Virus record (IMG/VR): IMGVR_UViG_3300013115_000245
Span: 1-40,577 of that record
Reading direction: 5' to 3' (one strand)
Length of the DNA stretch: 40,577 nucleotides
DNA from: a virus
Below, piece by piece: positions 3,001-40,518 of the stretch. The number at the start of each line of letters is the position of its first letter. The first letter of the stretch is position 1. The notes under the pieces were generated by a model. That model saw only the letters and a list, made by a program, of their open reading frames with translations. It ran no database searches and was not told where the DNA came from. The position numbers and the translations under genes are program-made.

Positions 3001-4530
3001 CTAACCCTTCAACTTAGGATTAATATAAACCCTATCATCATGCACGGCGCAATAATTCATTAACTCAAGCGCTGGCAAAACCTCATTGCGTATTTTTTTT
3101 GTAGGACTGCCAACACCTTTAAACGCCTTAAGGTTTTTAACTTCTCTTACTAATGCTGGTATTTTTATAACTGCTCCTTGTTTCTTCTTCTCGAATACGC
3201 GCTTTATCTCTTCAATTTCGGTATTTTTGCCAACGTAACCAAGTGCATCACAAGCTTTAATATAGCCTTTTGATAGCTCTTCAAACAATCCGATAGCCGA
3301 AAACAAATGATGTTCTTCCAGTGTTGTTGACCGATTGCCACCCTCTTTCCAATTGTCAATAACATGCAATATTGTTGCTATTTTCAATATGTGCTTATCT
3401 AACTTTCCGATAAAGCCTTTTAACATTGGATGTGCGTACTTCCCGTTAGGTCCTAAATCAGGCTCTATGCTGTTTCGGTATCCGTTTAATGAGTCCATTA
3501 TCGATTTTGTGAATTTAATAGTTACACTGCATTCGTTTACGATGTTTTTAATCAGCTTTTCGTATTGATCCGACAAATCTCTGTCTTTTGGAATGTAATT
3601 ATTAAAGTCCCTGGTGCCCATTTTTGATGATTCCTTAAGAATCAAAACACGCTCTGATATACCCAGGCCTTCAAGTCCTTTTCGTAATAGCGAGTCTATT
3701 GATTCATCTTGTGCGATAACCGCCATTGAAGCGCGCACATTCATAAATATCGGATCGCTTCCAGCTCGAACTATACTTACTGTTTCATCATCCCACCCAG
3801 ACAAAAACATACTGTTATTGTTCTTTTTACCATCCCCGTATGTATTACCAAGGATAATATTAATCGCATCCGATTCAGCGCTAACAATATTAAACATACC
3901 ACCTTGAGCAGCGGCGCTATCGCGTATTCCCTCGTTTGTACCATCAGTTACAAACGGCTGATAAACAGGACATTCGGTTAATTCTTTTTCAAGCTTTAAA
4001 ATATCGCCTTCAATCTGGTCAATTCCTGCGTCTGGTGTTTTGTCTATTGTTCCTTGAAGTTTTTTAATTTCCCTCTTAAGCCTGGACCGCTTTATTTTAT
4101 TTCTGTCGTTAATGTCAATGTATGCACTTACAATCGCATTAGTGTAGCTGCTATTTATTGATGACTTGCCACTTGATGGAGGCTGTGCTGTTATTACGTA
4201 TAAATTAGCCGTTTTTTTAATACCGTAGTAATCAAACTTAAACGCTTTAGTCATTGCGCTAGCAATTGCGCCCATTCCATGCAAAAAACCTGTAGCCTCT
4301 GGGAACTTTATCGACTGACATATACTTCGATTGAAATCTGCTAACAAGCAACCTTGTCTACTACTGCAAAGTTCGCTAAATCCATCCTCACCATCGACAT
4401 CTGACAGGTTGATATCATTCCACAATATCGGATTGCTTACATTTTGTATGCCAGATGAAAGCGCCACGCTTATCGGTGTCATGCCAAGCTCATTAGCCTG
4501 ATCTATTATCTGCTGAACTGATTTAGTCAT
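3001..4530 (-). CDS. DUF3987 / YfjI-type ATPase, probable replication protein
   Basis: 509 residues. A P-loop variant, PPSSGKS (about 117-123), is followed by a coiled-coil stretch (about 145-190) and a SAES/Asp region at 237-241 that may act as Walker B. The overall pattern matches DUF3987 proteins of phages and satellites, which are thought to act as helicase- or primase-associated ATPases in replication. The C-terminal 90 residues look like a winged-helix domain. It is encoded 2 bases after the small HTH gene and lies close to the AGGGTAA/TTACCCT dyads at 4928-5163, as expected for a replication module. The exact enzymatic role is inferred. Confidence 0.7.
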   Translation of the reverse strand: MTKSVQQIIDQANELGMTPISVALSSGIQNVSNPILWNDINLSDVDGEDGFSELCSSRQGCLLADFNRSICQSIKFPEATGFLHGMGAIASAMTKAFKFDYYGIKKTANLYVITAQPPSSGKSSINSSYTNAIVSAYIDINDRNKIKRSRLKREIKKLQGTIDKTPDAGIDQIEGDILKLEKELTECPVYQPFVTDGTNEGIRDSAAAQGGMFNIVSAESDAINIILGNTYGDGKKNNNSMFLSGWDDETVSIVRAGSDPIFMNVRASMAVIAQDESIDSLLRKGLEGLGISERVLILKESSKMGTRDFNNYIPKDRDLSDQYEKLIKNIVNECSVTIKFTKSIMDSLNGYRNSIEPDLGPNGKYAHPMLKGFIGKLDKHILKIATILHVIDNWKEGGNRSTTLEEHHLFSAIGLFEELSKGYIKACDALGYVGKNTEIEEIKRVFEKKKQGAVIKIPALVREVKNLKAFKGVGSPTKKIRNEVLPALELMNYCAVHDDRVYINPKLKG

Positions 4531-4532
4531 AG

Positions 4533-4745
4533 TTATTCAGCCATGCTATATAGCGTAATTTTCTCTTTTTTCATCCCAATACTGGCAAGCATATTATCAG
4601 TAGGCTCTAGCCTTCCATGCAATACAAACGAAACTGTAGTTTCGCTGTCACCCACTGATTTCGCGTAAGCTTTTTGCGATGCATGATCTTTCTCGATGTG
4701 AGCTTTAAGCTTTTCTATTACTTCTTCTTTGTTGTGTTTGTACAT
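4533..4745 (-). CDS. Small Cro/CI-like helix-turn-helix protein
   Basis: 70 residues. A helix-turn-helix of the XRE/Cro kind spans about residues 23-47 (SQKAYAKSVGDSETTVSFVL), followed by a short dimerisation-like tail. Probably a DNA-binding regulator of this leftward operon. Its ATG at 4745 is preceded by AGGGA and by a good promoter at 4757-4785. The promoter spacer contains TTTA-N8-TAAA, a possible autoregulatory operator. A full CI-type repressor with a peptidase domain is not seen in the window. Confidence 0.65.
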   Translation of the reverse strand: MYKHNKEEVIEKLKAHIEKDHASQKAYAKSVGDSETTVSFVLHGRLEPTDNMLASIGMKKEKITLYSMAE

Positions 4746-4756
4746 TTTATTCCCTT

Positions 4757-4785
4757 GTTATATATATTTACAATGTACTAAACAA
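4757..4785 (-). promoter_or_regulatory. Predicted leftward promoter for the HTH-DUF3987 operon
   Basis: On the minus strand TTGTTT (4785-4780) and TATAAC (4762-4757) are 17 bases apart, with the ATG at 4745 about 12 bases beyond the -10 box. The very short leader still contains an AGGGA ribosome binding site. The transcript start would lie only a few bases before that site, so an alternative upstream promoter is possible. Confidence 0.5.
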
Positions 4786-4927
4786 TAAATCATAATTAAC
4801 ACAAAGACAAGTGCAAATTTAAAATTATTTTTTATTGCTAATTCGCTATTGCTTTCACGTCTGTAAAAGAGTACGTTTAAATTCCTTCCGCAAGAAATAC
4901 CAAATAATCACTTCAAAAGGTCATCAA

Positions 4928-4957
4928 GGTAATGACAGGGTAATGCCGTCTTACCCT
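4928..4957. repeat. Dyad AGGGTAA-N7-TTACCCT, copy 1
   Basis: A perfect inverted repeat (4937-4943 and 4951-4957) with a 7-base spacer TGCCGTC. A further half-site GGTAATG lies 10 bases upstream at 4928. The same dyad with the same spacing recurs at 5123-5143, so it is very likely a binding site for a dimeric protein. Confidence 0.65.
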
Positions 4958-5122
4958 CTACAGGCTATGCCATATCTACGTTTCAGCCAAAAAGGTAAGA
5001 ATGTAAGGCATACATACCCATATACATAAATCTATAAAAAAATAAGAAAAATAAAATATAGTATGTATATATATTACTTTATTACCTTTTATTATTATTC
5101 TCTTATTTTATAAGGCTTACAG

Positions 5123-5163
5123 AGGGTAATATCATCTTACCCTTGCCTTACCCTCCTTACCCT
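5123..5163. repeat. Dyad AGGGTAA-N7-TTACCCT, copy 2, plus two half-sites
   Basis: The inverted repeat occupies 5123-5129 and 5137-5143 with a 7-base spacer TATCATC. Two more TTACCCT half-sites start at 5148 and 5157, 11 and 9 bases on, about one helical turn each. Such phased direct repeats are iteron-like. They lie immediately beside the AT-rich block. Confidence 0.65.
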
Positions 5164-5228
5164 GTTGTGTAAAATTTATTTTATTCTTGTTTTTACTGGT
5201 CAATATGTTAATCTTTATTCATTGACTG

Positions 5229-5267
5229 GCCATTACCGAACGTTCCGTAATTCTGCGGGGTAATGGC
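5229..5267. repeat. Inverted repeat GCCATTACC ... GGTAATGGC
   Basis: Nine-base arms at 5229-5237 and 5259-5267 flank a 21-base loop that includes the 8-base palindrome GAACGTTC (5238-5245). The arms contain the same GGTAAT core as the dyads at 4937 and 5123. It lies just ahead of the tRNA genes and may be an operator or a leader hairpin. Confidence 0.5.
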
Positions 5268-5276
5268 TGGTTTAAT

Positions 5277-5354
5277 CTCTGTGTAATGTCAGTCTGGTAG
5301 ACGGCCTTGTTTGGAACGAGAAGGACGTTGGTTCAAATCCAGCCACAGAGACCA
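5277..5354 (+). tRNA. tRNA-Pro (UGG anticodon)
   Basis: Acceptor stem CTCTGTG/CACAGAG (7 bp), discriminator A and encoded CCA. D-arm TGTC/GACG with AGTCTGGTA loop; three bases join acceptor and D-stem, as in bacterial tRNA-Pro. The anticodon loop is TTTGGAA with anticodon TGG; its stem has four pairs plus one C-A mismatch at the top. T-arm GTTGG/CCAGC with loop TTCAAAT. It decodes CCA (and probably other CCN) codons. Part of a two-tRNA pair ahead of terS. Confidence 0.88.
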
Positions 5355-5358
5355 AATA

Positions 5359-5435
5359 GGTTTGTTAGCTCAGCTGGATAGAGCAATTGCCTTCTAAGCA
5401 ATAGGTCAATGGTTCGAGTCCATTACAAACCGCCA
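5359..5435 (+). tRNA. tRNA-Arg (UCU anticodon)
   Basis: Complete cloverleaf: acceptor GGTTTGT/ACAAACC, D-arm GCTC/GAGC, anticodon stem ATTGC/GCAAT with loop CTTCTAA (anticodon TCT), T-arm AATGG/CCATT with loop TTCGAGT, discriminator G and encoded CCA. It reads AGA/AGG codons, which are frequent in the phage genes here and usually rare in host genes. It begins four bases after the tRNA-Pro CCA. Confidence 0.95.
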
Positions 5436-5464: not shown

Positions 5465-5851
5465 ATGCCAGGTGGTAGACCGACAACTTACACAGAAGAA
5501 ATGCTAAACAAAGCCAAGGAGTATATAAATTCCTATAGCGAACTTGGTGATGTTGTTCCTAGCGTTGTTGGAATGTGCAGGCATATAAACCGTTCAAAAA
5601 CCGTTGTTTATGACTGGTGCAAGGAAGAGGGAAAGGAAGAGTTTGCGGACATCGTAAAGCAAATATCTGAAATTCAAGAGAGTGATTTGATTAACGGCGG
5701 TCTTTCTGGTGTCCATAATCCACAAATTGGAAAAATGATGCTTGCCAAACATGGTTACAGCGATAGAGTTGAGCAATCTCATACCTCACCCGATGGAAGC
5801 ATGACCCCACAGCATCCAACTTATACGATCGTGAAAGATGGCGGCGATTGA
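5465..5851 (+). CDS. terS: Terminase small subunit
   Basis: 128 residues beginning MPGGRPTTYTEEML. It has the N-terminal helix-turn-helix region (about 28-55, VPSVVGMCRHINRSKTVVYDW) and the later GGLSG-x-HNPQIGKMMLAKHGYSDR stretch (about 78-100) of P22 gp3-like small terminases. It recognises the packaging site and loads the large subunit on concatemeric DNA. AGAGG precedes the ATG at a good distance. Its 3' end overlaps the original terL start by 14 bases. The last 17 codons are duplicated at 6801 behind the inserted host DNA. The gene itself is intact. Confidence 0.85.
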   Translation: MPGGRPTTYTEEMLNKAKEYINSYSELGDVVPSVVGMCRHINRSKTVVYDWCKEEGKEEFADIVKQISEIQESDLINGGLSGVHNPQIGKMMLAKHGYSDRVEQSHTSPDGSMTPQHPTYTIVKDGGD

Positions 5852-5912
5852 GAAACCAATAGAAATATTTCCTGCCTTTGCAGACTATCTACAGCCGGCT
5901 AGGTTTAAGGTT
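5798..5912 (+). repeat. 115-bp direct repeat, left copy (terS end / terL start)
   Basis: Identical over all 115 bases to 6801-6915, with both flanks diverging immediately. It covers the last 54 bases of terS and the first 75 bases of terL, which overlap by 14. Perfect identity suggests that the duplication is recent. It bounds the host-derived mltG'-tmk segment. Confidence 0.97.
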
Positions 5913-5915
5913 TAG
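5838..5915 (+). pseudogene. Truncated duplicate of terL (first 25 codons)
   Basis: The first 25 codons of the large terminase gene, ending in KV, followed at the junction with host DNA by an in-frame TAG (5913-5915). It stops just before the region that would encode the Walker A motif. It is the left-hand by-product of the duplication that accompanied the tmk insertion. The intact gene starts at 6841. Confidence 0.9.
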
Positions 5916-6172
5916 GAGACGAGTATCAAGGTGATATTACCCGTGAACATTTAAGACGTCATACGCCGTATAATACCTATCGAATTAAAGGTTTGCCCCC
6001 GACTCCAATTGCCATGCCAGGAGCTGCAGCTATTGAAGCGGCGATTTACCCAGCTACGACAAACTATTATTATTTTGTTGCCAGCGGTGAGGGCGGTCAT
6101 GTATTTTCGGAAACGCTGAAAGCCCATAATTTGGCTGTAAAAGCTTATTTAAAGAAAACTAGGACAAAGTAA
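5909..6172 (+). pseudogene. mltG: 3' fragment of host mltG (endolytic murein transglycosylase)
   Basis: Frame 5909-6172 encodes about 87 residues ending in a TAA two bases before tmk. The sequence matches the C-terminus of MltG/Yce[10 protein letters not shown], then [24 protein letters not shown] and [13 protein letters not shown]. The N-terminal membrane anchor, LysM-like domain and most of the catalytic domain are absent, and there is no start codon in the fragment, so it is not functional. mltG-tmk-holB is a normal chromosomal order in Gammaproteobacteria, so this is a piece of host chromosome. The join shares GGTT with phage sequence. Confidence 0.9.
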
Positions 6173-6800
6173 ACATGAAAAGTCAGTTTATTGTAATCGA
6201 AGGCCTTGAAGGCGCAGGAAAGTCTACCGCTACTAAAGCCATTAAAGATTGGTTAGCAAAGCGCGACATTAGCTATACCACAACACGTGAGCCTGGTGGA
6301 ACACCATTGGCAGAATCATTACGTACTTTGGTAAAACAAGTTCATGAAGAAACGGTTACAGCGGAAGCCGAGCTTTTGATCATGTATGCAAGTCGTGTAC
6401 AACTCATCGAGAATGTTATCAAACCTAATTTATCACAAGGTAATTGGGTTATTGGCGATAGACATGACTTATCATCTAGAGCGTATCAAGGCGGTGGCCG
6501 TGGTATTGCAGATGAGCTAATTGAGCCTATTCGAACCGCAGTATTAAAAGATTTTAAACCTGATTTAACTTTGTACTTAGATATTGATCCTAAAGTTGGC
6601 TTAGCGCGCGCGAGTGCTCGTGGTGAGCTAGACCGCATCGAGCTTGAACAGTTATCGTTTTTTGAACGTACAAGAGAAAAGTATCAAGCGATTGCCGCGC
6701 AGGATGAGTCTATTATCACTATAGATGCAGAGCAATCGATAGATGAAGTCTACAATAACATCACCAACGTTTTAGACAGTTATTATCAAGGTCAATAGTG
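5913..6800 (+). other. Inserted host chromosomal segment (mltG'-tmk)
   Basis: 888 bases between the two copies of the 115-bp repeat that have no counterpart in a normal terS-terL junction. It contains the end of mltG, the complete tmk gene and two bases beyond the tmk stop, so the right boundary falls almost exactly at the end of tmk. No transposase, inverted terminal repeat or integrase site is visible. Microhomology (GGTT) at the left join points to illegitimate recombination. Confidence 0.85.
6175..6798 (+). CDS. tmk: Thymidylate kinase (host-derived)
   Basis: 207 residues, full length for bacterial TMK (E. coli about 213). P-loop GLEGAGKST (10-18), [12 protein letters not shown] (about 35-46), the DRH motif (95-97) followed by [11 protein letters not shown], and an arginine-containing LID region [12 protein letters not shown] (about 145-156). 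It phosphorylates dTMP to dTDP with ATP in the cytoplasm, an obligatory step of dTTP synthesis. It starts two bases after the mltG fragment, as in the host operon, and no new ribosome binding site is evident. In the phage it would be read from the late rightward transcript between terS and terL. All key motifs are intact, so it should be active if expressed. It would supplement the phage dNMP kinase at 29359. Confidence 0.95.
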
Positions 6801-6915
6801 AGCATGACCCCACAGCATCCAACTTATACGATCGTGAAAGATGGCGGCGATTGAGAAACCAATAGAAATATTTCCTGCCTTTGCAGACTATCTACAGCCG
6901 GCTAGGTTTAAGGTT
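6801..6915 (+). repeat. 115-bp direct repeat, right copy
   Basis: Identical to 5798-5912. It restores the end of terS (non-coding here) and the start of terL, including the translation signals GTGAAAG before the ATG at 6841. This makes the insertion non-disruptive for both terminase genes. Confidence 0.97.
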
Positions 6916-28635: not shown

Positions 28636-28706
28636 GTAATAAATAGGAACATTCCGCTATTTATCTGTAATAAATGGGAATGTTCCTGCAATGACAGTGT
28701 TATACG
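28636..28706. repeat. Dispersed repeat, copy 2, forming a long hairpin
   Basis: The full 40-bp repeat (28667-28706) is preceded by a partial copy of its first 20 bases (28636-28655). Together they make an inverted repeat: AGGAACATTCC (28645-28655) pairs perfectly with GGAATGTTCCT (28677-28687), with inner ATTTAT/ATAAAT arms. The element lies just after the stop of the gene ending at 28709. Confidence 0.65.
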
Positions 28707-35636: not shown

Positions 35637-37001
35637 TCAAACAAAACTCGGCATACTGGCTTTTAATAATGGCTGGTAGTCTGTTTTTTCGCTTGATGCG
35701 CCTTTGATTTCCTTGCGCATTGCGTCGCCCATAACTTTGATCATCTCAGCTCGCATTAACTTGTCGTTTTCCATTTTGTTTAACATAACGCTGTGGATAC
35801 CAGTTTCTTGCTCAGTCATAAACACCTTAACTTCAACTGGCTTTGCTTGGCCGAATCGCCACTGTCTGCGGACAGCCTGGTAAAACTGCTCAAAGCTATA
35901 AGTAGGTCCTACAAATGCCATTTTGCAGCTTGATTGATAGTTTAATCCAAAGCCTGCGATTGATGCCTTGCTAACCAGTTTAGTGTACTTGCCACTCGCG
36001 AATCCAAGTAATCGATCCTCTTTGTTTTCCGGCTTATCACTGCCTTTAACTTCAACCGCCTCAGTGATTGCCTTAGTTAATAGCTCGCTTTCCTCATTTG
36101 ACTCGGCCCAGATCAAACAAGGCTCATTAAGTGAGTTTACCCATTCTGAACAAGCTATAACCCTATCATGCACACTTGATTTTTTAGCTTGTCGTGCGGC
36201 TGATAGCCCTTGAGCGATATCTGCGAACAACGCATCTTCATTGTGACTATTCAATACAACCTCGCTAATGGTTAGCGGTGGCAAATCGTAATCTGAACCG
36301 TCAAAGCCTAAATCTTTAGGACTTGAGATCACAACCGCCCAGGTCGCTAACCACTCCCAAAACTTTTTAACGCCATGGCCTTTTAATCGCCACTTTTGCG
36401 TCTCGCTGCCATCATGCGTAAAAAACATAGCCAACATTTCAACTTGTGACATTACGCCTAAAAATTCTGCTTGCGTGCCCAGTTCCATAAAATCATTTGG
36501 TGATGGTGTTGCTGTGCAACTCAAGCGGTACGGTATATTTTTAGCAAACTCAGTGAGCTTTTTACGGTATGCGCCTGTTTGTCCTTTTAGAATTGAGCTT
36601 TCATCTAACACAATCCCGGCGTAATCATCAGGGTTGAAGTTATCTAGCATTTCATAGTTGGTTATTACAACCTGCAGCGATCCATCGTATTCACGCATAT
36701 ATCTTGCACCGTTGTAAATACCAAACTTACTCGCCTCGCCCTCGGTTTGCTTGCCAACTGCCAGTGGTGCGAGTAGTAAAACAGGCTTTCCTGTTTCGCT
36801 TATCACTTGGCTGGCCCATTCTAGTTGCATAAACGACTTACCTAGTCCGGTATCAGCAAAAATTGCAGCTTTACCACGCTTACACGCCCAGTTTACGATT
36901 GCTTTTTGGTGCGGTTTTAATCCCTCGTTTAAGTCAACGGGATTAAATCCCGCCGACTCTTTAACAAAAGACTTTTTATTAATAAAGTCTTGATAATTCA
37001 T
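35637..37001 (-). CDS. SNF2-like helicase/translocase
   Basis: 454 residues from ATG 37001, which overlaps the clamp gene stop as TAATG; an open frame continues 22 codons upstream but only over that gene. LKPHQKAIVNWA (28-39), Walker A DTGLGKS (50-56), DESS in place of DEAH (133-136), TATPSPND (163-170), and RRQWRFGQ motif VI (about 390). This is the SNF2/SF2 core without large insertions. It probably translocates on duplex DNA to help replication, repair or recombination. Confidence 0.82.
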   Translation of the reverse strand: MNYQDFINKKSFVKESAGFNPVDLNEGLKPHQKAIVNWACKRGKAAIFADTGLGKSFMQLEWASQVISETGKPVLLLAPLAVGKQTEGEASKFGIYNGARYMREYDGSLQVVITNYEMLDNFNPDDYAGIVLDESSILKGQTGAYRKKLTEFAKNIPYRLSCTATPSPNDFMELGTQAEFLGVMSQVEMLAMFFTHDGSETQKWRLKGHGVKKFWEWLATWAVVISSPKDLGFDGSDYDLPPLTISEVVLNSHNEDALFADIAQGLSAARQAKKSSVHDRVIACSEWVNSLNEPCLIWAESNEESELLTKAITEAVEVKGSDKPENKEDRLLGFASGKYTKLVSKASIAGFGLNYQSSCKMAFVGPTYSFEQFYQAVRRQWRFGQAKPVEVKVFMTEQETGIHSVMLNKMENDKLMRAEMIKVMGDAMRKEIKGASSEKTDYQPLLKASMPSFV

Positions 37002-38029
37002 TAAACTTTCACTCTCATTATGATGTTGTTGATGTTTTCGTCTGAGATAACAAAGCCTCTTTCGCACAGGCCAATTGCTACTTGATCAGGTTCTATACTA
37101 TTAACAGCATCTAAGAGGTACGATGAGTTAGATCCGATTTCGAATCCCTCAATCTCAACCGGCTGCGAGCATTCAAAGCCGATGGTTGACTTGTCTTTTT
37201 GTGTTTTTGATTCGATGTAAGATTCCTTACCAAAGTGTAATAAAATTGACTTTGTTTCAGTGTTTGATGTGATCATCGCTGATTTAATTGCGTCGATAAA
37301 GTCGGCTTTATTAACATCAACTTGATGTTCTTTTTCAAAGATTGCGCGGCGATAATCAACGTACTTTGCATCAATCAACTTACATTTGAATTGCTCGTTA
37401 TCACCGATTAAAGCAATGATATTGTTGTTATAATATGTCGCACCGTCGATTAACGGGGCTTTATTAACAAACTCAATTGGTAATATCAGATCACCATCAC
37501 AATCAAAGTCATGATCGGCCCACGCCATACGATGGCCGTTTGTCGCTACTACATGAGCGTCGCTAATATGTACGCCGTTAAGCATAAATCTAACGTCATT
37601 TTTAGCCGCTGCAAAAGCGACCGATTGAACATCAGTAACCAGATTCATTGATGATGCGCCGAATAATTGCAAATCGTCATCGCTTGGGAATGACGGATAA
37701 ACATCTGCAGGTTGGTAAGCTAGCTTAAACTTACTGCGCCCGCTTTTGATCTCAATTTGCAGATCGCCAACGGTTACTTGCACGTCTTTTTTACATGCGT
37801 TGAATGATTGCAGAAACTTAGTGGCGTCAACCTGAAACGCGCAATCAAGCTCAACTTGCGCCTCGATTGTTTTTGTTAACTCAATCACTGAATCGCCAGC
37901 GGTTAATGTGACTTGGTTGTTTTCTGCTTTAATCAAAACATTCTGGAAAGCGGCAATCGGGCTACGACTAGCCGCTGATTGACATACTTGCTTTATTGCG
38001 TCCGAATTGTCTTTGCTGATAGTAAACAT
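37001..38029 (-). CDS. dnaN: Sliding clamp (DNA polymerase III beta-like)
   Basis: 342 residues, close to the 366 of the bacterial beta clamp. VTLTAGDSVIELTKTI (about 35-50), LAYQPADVYPSFP (about 104-116), and VHISDAHVVATNGHRMAW (about 152-169) correspond to conserved strands of DnaN, with NGHR in the position of the highly conserved TDGHRLA. The clamp encircles DNA and tethers polymerase. No phage DNA polymerase is visible in the window, so it may recruit host polymerase III or other clamp-binding proteins. One-base overlaps with both neighbours. Confidence 0.85.
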   Translation of the reverse strand: MFTISKDNSDAIKQVCQSAASRSPIAAFQNVLIKAENNQVTLTAGDSVIELTKTIEAQVELDCAFQVDATKFLQSFNACKKDVQVTVGDLQIEIKSGRSKFKLAYQPADVYPSFPSDDDLQLFGASSMNLVTDVQSVAFAAAKNDVRFMLNGVHISDAHVVATNGHRMAWADHDFDCDGDLILPIEFVNKAPLIDGATYYNNNIIALIGDNEQFKCKLIDAKYVDYRRAIFEKEHQVDVNKADFIDAIKSAMITSNTETKSILLHFGKESYIESKTQKDKSTIGFECSQPVEIEGFEIGSNSSYLLDAVNSIEPDQVAIGLCERGFVISDENINNIIMRVKV

Positions 38030-40430: not shown

Positions 40431-40472
40431 TTTTTGTTACCTTTCAATCATTCCTGATTTTGCTCATATATC

Positions 40473-40518
40473 GTAATAAATGGGAACATTCCTGCAATGA
40501 CAGTGTTATATGTCTAAT
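40473..40518. repeat. Dispersed 40-bp repeat, copy 3
   Basis: GTAATAAATGGGAACATTCC at the left, GTGTTATATG followed by GTCTAA at the right. It is nearly identical to the copy at 28667-28706 (differences confined to a few bases). The stop of the partial leftward gene at 40506 lies within it, as in copy 1. Confidence 0.65.

Follow-up and report, generated by a model that had tools for sequence, protein, structure and literature searches.

Gene organization around a repeat-bearing intergenic gap

The window (the whole stretch of DNA analyzed) is a 40,577-bp viral record, from a marine phage, in which the segment up to 4745 and that at 28.7–40 kb are occupied by leftward genes, while most genes at 5.4–28.5 kb run rightward. 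At 4746–5276, a gap separates a leftward gene pair, encoding a small HTH-like protein and a DUF3987 protein, from a rightward run that opens with two tRNA genes (Pro-like, 5277–5351; Arg, 5359–5435) and continues with the small terminase gene. The first of these tRNA-like genes has an Rfam match of 45.6 bits and no ARAGORN call, and its Pro(TGG) anticodon was read by eye. GC skew, which a first-pass annotation of this DNA had put forward as a check for an origin, did not discriminate: its switch near 5 kb coincides with the change in gene orientation, and leftward genes at 14.4–16.9 kb invert it as well, so skew was not used as evidence and the switch was rejected as an origin signal.

The same annotation had described the leftward neighbors as a Cro-like protein and a DUF3987 replication-type ATPase. 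The second assignment is firm, with matches to Pfam DUF3987 (PF13148; 123.7 bits, cut-off 27) and to phrog_2373 (E = 1.6e-121, residues 3–509), and with DUF3987 the sole hit of a Pfam scan at E ≤ 0.01. This protein carries a Walker A motif at residue 116 (QPPSSGKS), belongs to a family earlier predicted to be helicases (PMC5862659), and is matched by 1151 of 50,697 phage records. The “Cro-like” label holds less well, as the 70-aa protein is HTH-like with weak profile matches only and found no match among phage records. Further replication genes of the phage include a sliding clamp and a CHC2 primase-like protein, the latter likely the partner of the helicase at the fork (Table 1); no DNA polymerase was noted among the ORFs read, part of which were profiled.

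Table 1 Features of the predicted origin and of associated replication genes (strand “.”, unstranded)
Feature	Position	Strand	Basis or remark
Predicted replication origin, non-coding	4746–5276	.	GGGTAA excess; region upstream of helicase repeat-rich in relatives
Degenerate half-site GGTAA	4928		Beside dyad 1
Dyad 1, AGGGTAA-TGCCGTC-TTACCCT; iterons 4938 (+) and 4951 (−)	4937–4957	.	Exact match
AT-rich block, predicted DNA unwinding element	5020–5113	.	89% AT over 90 bp
Dyad 2, AGGGTAA-TATCATC-TTACCCT; iterons 5124 (+) and 5137 (−)	5123–5143	.	Exact match
Two direct iterons TTACCC, at 5148 and 5157	5148–5163	−	11 and 9 nt from neighbors
Inverted repeat GCCATTACC/GGTAATGGC with one GGGTAA (5258)	5229–5267	.	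Hairpin just upstream of tRNA genes
Small 70-aa HTH-like gene separating the origin from the helicase	4533–4745	−	Weak profile matches only
DUF3987/phrog_2373 helicase, 509 aa, predicted initiator helicase	3001–4530	−	Profile matches; model
Helicase C-terminal winged helix (residues 432–509), predicted iteron-binding domain	3004–3237	−	Model
Sliding clamp of the phage (DNA polymerase III beta family)	37001–38029	−	No DNA polymerase noted among ORFs read
DnaG-type CHC2 zinc-ribbon primase-like protein, 247 aa	39333–40076	−	Profile match

Several other features of the window were recorded. A leftward gene (2232–2930) encodes a protein of 232 aa whose sequence gives the impression of a highly diverged tyrosine recombinase and which matched neither a phage record nor, at usable E-values, any Pfam or PHROG profile. 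A 115-bp exact direct repeat (5798–5912 and 6801–6915) extends from the end of terS into the start of terL, and its copies enclose an 888-bp insert in which a complete thymidylate kinase gene accompanies the 3′ end of a bacterial mltG (YceG) gene. This arrangement (5798–6915) recurs in an identical contig (L007), while a near-identical one (L008) has a single repeat copy and lacks the insert, which could reflect either an assembly chimera or the genuine acquisition of host DNA. Finally, a 49-bp element occurs twice with 90% identity, and the copy at 28656–28704 folds as a long hairpin around GGAACATTCC, whereas that at 40462–40510 does not.

Dyads, half-sites and an AT-rich block within the gap

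The feature that first drew attention to the gap, a pair of dyads (AGGGTAA-N7-TTACCCT) with identical 7-base spacing and 186 bp apart, was reproduced exactly, and the dyad is absent from the rest of the window. When spacers of 3–12 nt were scanned, AGGGTAA/TTACCCT was the sole repeated perfect 7-bp dyad in the window, and none of 40 shuffles contained a pair of perfect dyads within 500 bp of each other with at least three G/C in the arm. A looser version of the pattern (up to three mismatches) is unremarkable by itself, since two or more matches also arose in 32 of 100 shuffles. The half-sites are enriched as well: the 531-bp gap contains seven copies of GGGTAA, where the remainder of the window would predict 0.21 (P-value of 3e-9, Poisson), and six of the nine copies of AGGGTAA in the window. 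Of the additional half-sites reported at about one helical turn from the dyads, the two on the right are exact TTACCC, whereas the one on the left retains GGTAA only. Iteron spacings in the window are 9 and 11 nt (helix-phased).

Between the dyads lies the most AT-rich 90-mer of the window, with a runner-up elsewhere at 82% AT, in agreement with the earlier description of an extremely AT-rich stretch. The inverted repeat at the right edge of the gap, also described before, exists and is predicted by folding to form a strong hairpin (−22.8 kcal/mol); whether it belongs to the origin is uncertain. A 48-nt hairpin (5225–5272) stops right before the tRNA-like gene, and a search of the gap for a terminator found none. 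Collectively, the gap displays what is expected of an iteron origin, namely a repeat cluster, helical phasing, an AT-rich element and a candidate initiator gene close by.

Repeat arrays upstream of DUF3987 helicases in other loci

The close relatives of this phage in IMG/VR are two near-identical contigs only, and are thus uninformative on conservation. For the wider comparison, six DUF3987 helicases were aligned and 80 IMG/VR loci were fetched, from which we retained a non-redundant set of 38 (helicase identity below 80%). A first count of 6-mers in the non-coding gaps of the fetched loci had shown that G-run words recur in the gap immediately preceding the helicase. In the non-redundant set, 12 of 24 helicase-adjacent gaps reached P ≤ 0.01, compared to 3 of 52 other gaps, and these three exceptions (in L013, L014 and L030) are themselves repeat-bearing gaps within the helicase neighborhood. 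An automatic test on fixed 1.4-kb segments upstream of the helicase, which involves no choice of gap or motif, found a 6-mer present at least seven times in 17 of 38 upstream segments as opposed to 3 of 186 control segments (P-value of 2e-12, Fisher test). Furthermore, neighboring copies on the same strand were spaced by 8–11 or 19–22 nt in 45 of 61 cases (24 of 101 in controls; P-value of 5e-10), and in a position-blind scan, 19 of the 38 loci had their best array 250–1100 bp upstream of the helicase.

Bacterial genomes, considered as an independent source, yielded only one relative, and new viral loci therefore served as the held-out set (20 usable loci from three scans seeded by other helicase clades). 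Here, the 6-mer repeat test was positive in 5 of 20 loci compared to 1 of 66 controls (P-value of 0.002), and the phasing test in 18 of 26 spacings compared to 6 of 32 (P-value of 1.5e-4). The array effect thus replicates but is weaker and concerns a smaller share of loci. It is not universal: by the automatic test, about half of the 38 helicase loci show no array, and an array was seen in only a quarter of the held-out loci.

In most relatives the repeats lie on both sides of an AT-rich block, either as direct repeats with a spacing of one helical turn or as single sites oriented toward that block; the per-locus motifs used for this comparison of layout were picked by hand, while the three statistical scans were automatic. 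The dyad symmetry stressed in the first-pass annotation is therefore not what most relatives display. One locus (L088) has a GGGAAA-rich gap downstream of its helicase, outside the upstream region searched. These tests count repeats, and homology of the arrays lies beyond them; the motifs have drifted too far for alignment to show common descent. In one close pair of loci, the helicases are 72% identical, with changes in the winged-helix recognition region among others, and the iterons differ (CGGTAA in L034, 4563–5234; TGTAGC in L071, 4772–5351). Such a difference would need fast co-evolution and counts against the origin reading.

Predicted fold of the DUF3987 helicase

We modelled the helicase with AlphaFold2 on 46 sequences (mean pLDDT 89.5). 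The predicted core resembles MCM ATPases (Z of about 17, rmsd 3.7 over ~270 residues; Foldseek E of 1e-6, probability 1.0). A separate model of the last 78 residues on their own (pLDDT 82.5) shows a winged helix, for which the winged helix of MCM4 was the best match (Z of 10.6, rmsd 1.7 over 69 residues). The protein is thus predicted to consist of an MCM-like AAA+ core followed by a C-terminal winged helix, its likely DNA-binding domain. N-terminal to the matched core there are just some 57 residues, which the model renders as short helices; this leaves no room for the large N-terminal domain of MCM proteins, and we therefore call the helicase “MCM-like” rather than a member of the MCM family. 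A search of solved structures by sequence with the helicase profile returned no match, and neither SaPI Rep nor Cch was among the fold-search matches listed, an absence to which we attach no weight.

Which protein reads the repeats, and alternative readings of the gap

The first-pass annotation had left two functions side by side, an iteron origin or a two-operator loop, and had suggested looking for the dyad in related phages. The half-site recurs in several of them: GGGTAA is the top 6-mer both in the window and in four relatives (L024, L037, L060 and L087) with helicases 32–36% identical to that of the window. The gene between repeats and helicase is, by comparison, variable: that of the window is XRE-like, those of L024 and L060 are of Cro/YdaS type, that of L087 is CopG-like, and those of L037 and L043 match no DNA-binding family. 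Since GGGTAA is kept while this small gene changes family, the motif is not tied to the small protein, and the HTH protein is probably not the main binder. Sequence comparison thus points to the DUF3987 protein, rather than the 70-residue HTH protein, as probably the main binder of the repeats.

These observations also bear on the operator half of the earlier proposal, in which the 70-residue Cro-like protein would bind the dyads and control divergent transcription, perhaps by looping. The two-fold symmetry of the sites, the adjoining HTH gene and the divergent gene order are what such an array would have, and promoter-like hexamers occur near the HTH gene (8, not well above a shuffle mean of 4.1, sd 2.1). 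Across relatives, however, the site motif does not follow the repressor gene as expected of a Cro-type operator: GGGTAA persists beside a CopG-like small gene (L087) and beside small genes that match no DNA-binding family (L037, L043), and it is lacking in L020, whose Cro/YdaS gene is of the kind found in L024 and L060. Many sites, moreover, are arranged as direct repeats with a one-turn spacing across a very AT-rich block. Relatives hence favor the origin, and we consider an operator array quite improbable as the main function of the gap. Alternatively, the gap could be an origin at which a different protein, of phage or host, reads the repeats and the DUF3987 helicase is only loaded. The product of the small gene is often a DNA-binding protein, and helicase binding is deduced from comparison, both of which would accommodate this; the changing family of the small gene beside a constant GGGTAA speaks against a phage-encoded reader of that kind, and DnaA boxes show no enrichment (3 across 23 origin regions compared to 1.8 expected; the gap of the window has one, at 5166), which led us to reject a DnaA-box origin for the DUF3987 family. 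A separate reader is accordingly judged unlikely.

The geometry of 7-bp arms around a 7-bp spacer also recalls core sites of a tyrosine recombinase, for which the gene at 2232–2930 would be the candidate. Its resemblance to such enzymes is a sequence impression without a profile match, the two spacers differ (TGCCGTC and TATCATC), and recombination would leave the arrays in relatives unexplained, making this reading extremely improbable.

A comparison among phages related by terminase bears on the same question. The terminase places this phage near the Pseudoalteromonas phages XCL1123, H103, C7 and H40/1. XCL1123 has the same order of a 72-aa gene, a 509-aa DUF3987 homologue and then a 534-bp gap, in which GGGGC-type repeats surround an AT-rich stretch, while H103, C7 and H40/1, with no DUF3987 match in the 25 kb examined, carry other replication proteins and have different repeats in the corresponding gap. 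It would thus seem that the repeat sequence follows the replication protein and not the terminase. The origin-like gap of phage C7 (L011, 8790–9300) contains four exact DnaA-box-like TTWTNCACA sequences compared to 0.06 expected from shuffles, and C7 may thus use host DnaA, unlike the DUF3987 phages.

Proposed mechanism and implications

Taken together, we consider it quite probable, on the strength of sequence comparison, that 4746–5276 is an iteron-type replication origin of the phage read by the adjacent DUF3987 helicase. In the mechanism we propose, the C-terminal winged helix of the helicase would bind the iterons, such that copies stack on one face of the DNA helix on each side of the AT block and two hexamers assemble; the AT block would then melt and the helicase load without a separate loader. 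Phage primase and clamp would subsequently recruit a polymerase, probably that of the host given that none was noted among the ORFs read. Binding at the iterons would probably also damp transcription of the helicase operon.

A broader proposal, which we hold to be about as likely to be right as wrong, is that DUF3987 phages share an undescribed class of origin, in which an MCM-like self-loading helicase reads G-run iterons by its own winged helix, lineage-private iterons co-evolve with that winged helix, and origin and helicase travel as an exchangeable cassette. The candidate locus offers a concrete and cheap test of how and where replication starts in DUF3987 phages. It suggests that the helicase combines origin binding and loading in a single protein, and it ties a phage replication module to MCM-like rings. 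Drifting phased iterons would furthermore constitute a natural data set for joint change of a winged helix and its DNA site, and are candidate sites for exploitation by satellites or defence systems.

Comparison with known replicons

In the open-access papers searched, none was found that places the origin of a DUF3987 phage. Among phages that carry such a helicase, gp49 of Pantoea phage AAS23 contains DUF3987, and the authors describing that phage could not name its origin-binding protein (PMC8004638); for phage TLS, gp58 was named as helicase, and no origin repeats were found anywhere in the genome (PMC11447400). T1-like phages encode homologues of the helicase studied here; unlike in the window, their loci have no array next to it, and most of those analyzed are without a clear array. 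In AAS23, itself T1-like, repeated TTTGCGGTAG surrounds an AT-rich block (L014, 416–907) within a divergent gap about 3 kb upstream of the DUF3987 helicase, where the early operon leading to this gene starts.

New here are the predicted MCM-like fold of the DUF3987 helicase and its proposed pairing with an origin. The predicted AAA+ core and C-terminal winged helix are alike in fold to those of MCM replicative helicases, which differ by their large N-terminal domain, and the iteron-specific binding is our proposal for the phage protein. In staphylococcal SCCmec elements, the C-terminal domain of the Cch2 helicase binds short direct repeats of a putative origin beside its operon in vitro (PMC7581432), a likeness to the arrangement predicted here; Cch2 differs in being a D5-like helicase with only three iterons of another sequence, on an island rather than a phage.

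A close parallel is the Rep-ori system of the Staphylococcus aureus pathogenicity islands SaPIbov1 and SaPI5, where a self-loading initiator helicase acts at a multi-iteron origin adjoining its own gene. The SaPI origin likewise has an AT-rich region between iteron sets. The two systems differ in helicase family, which is DUF927 in SaPIbov1 and D5/Primase_C-term in SaPI5 as opposed to DUF3987 here, so that the phage protein does not fall within the SaPI family, and in placement, the SaPI origin lying downstream of rep whereas that of these lytic phages lies upstream with a small gene in between. As the C-terminal domain of SaPI Rep recognizes the iteron origin (PMC7581432), the system in the window would, by analogy, work like the SaPI origin/Rep pair, with another helicase family and another host range.
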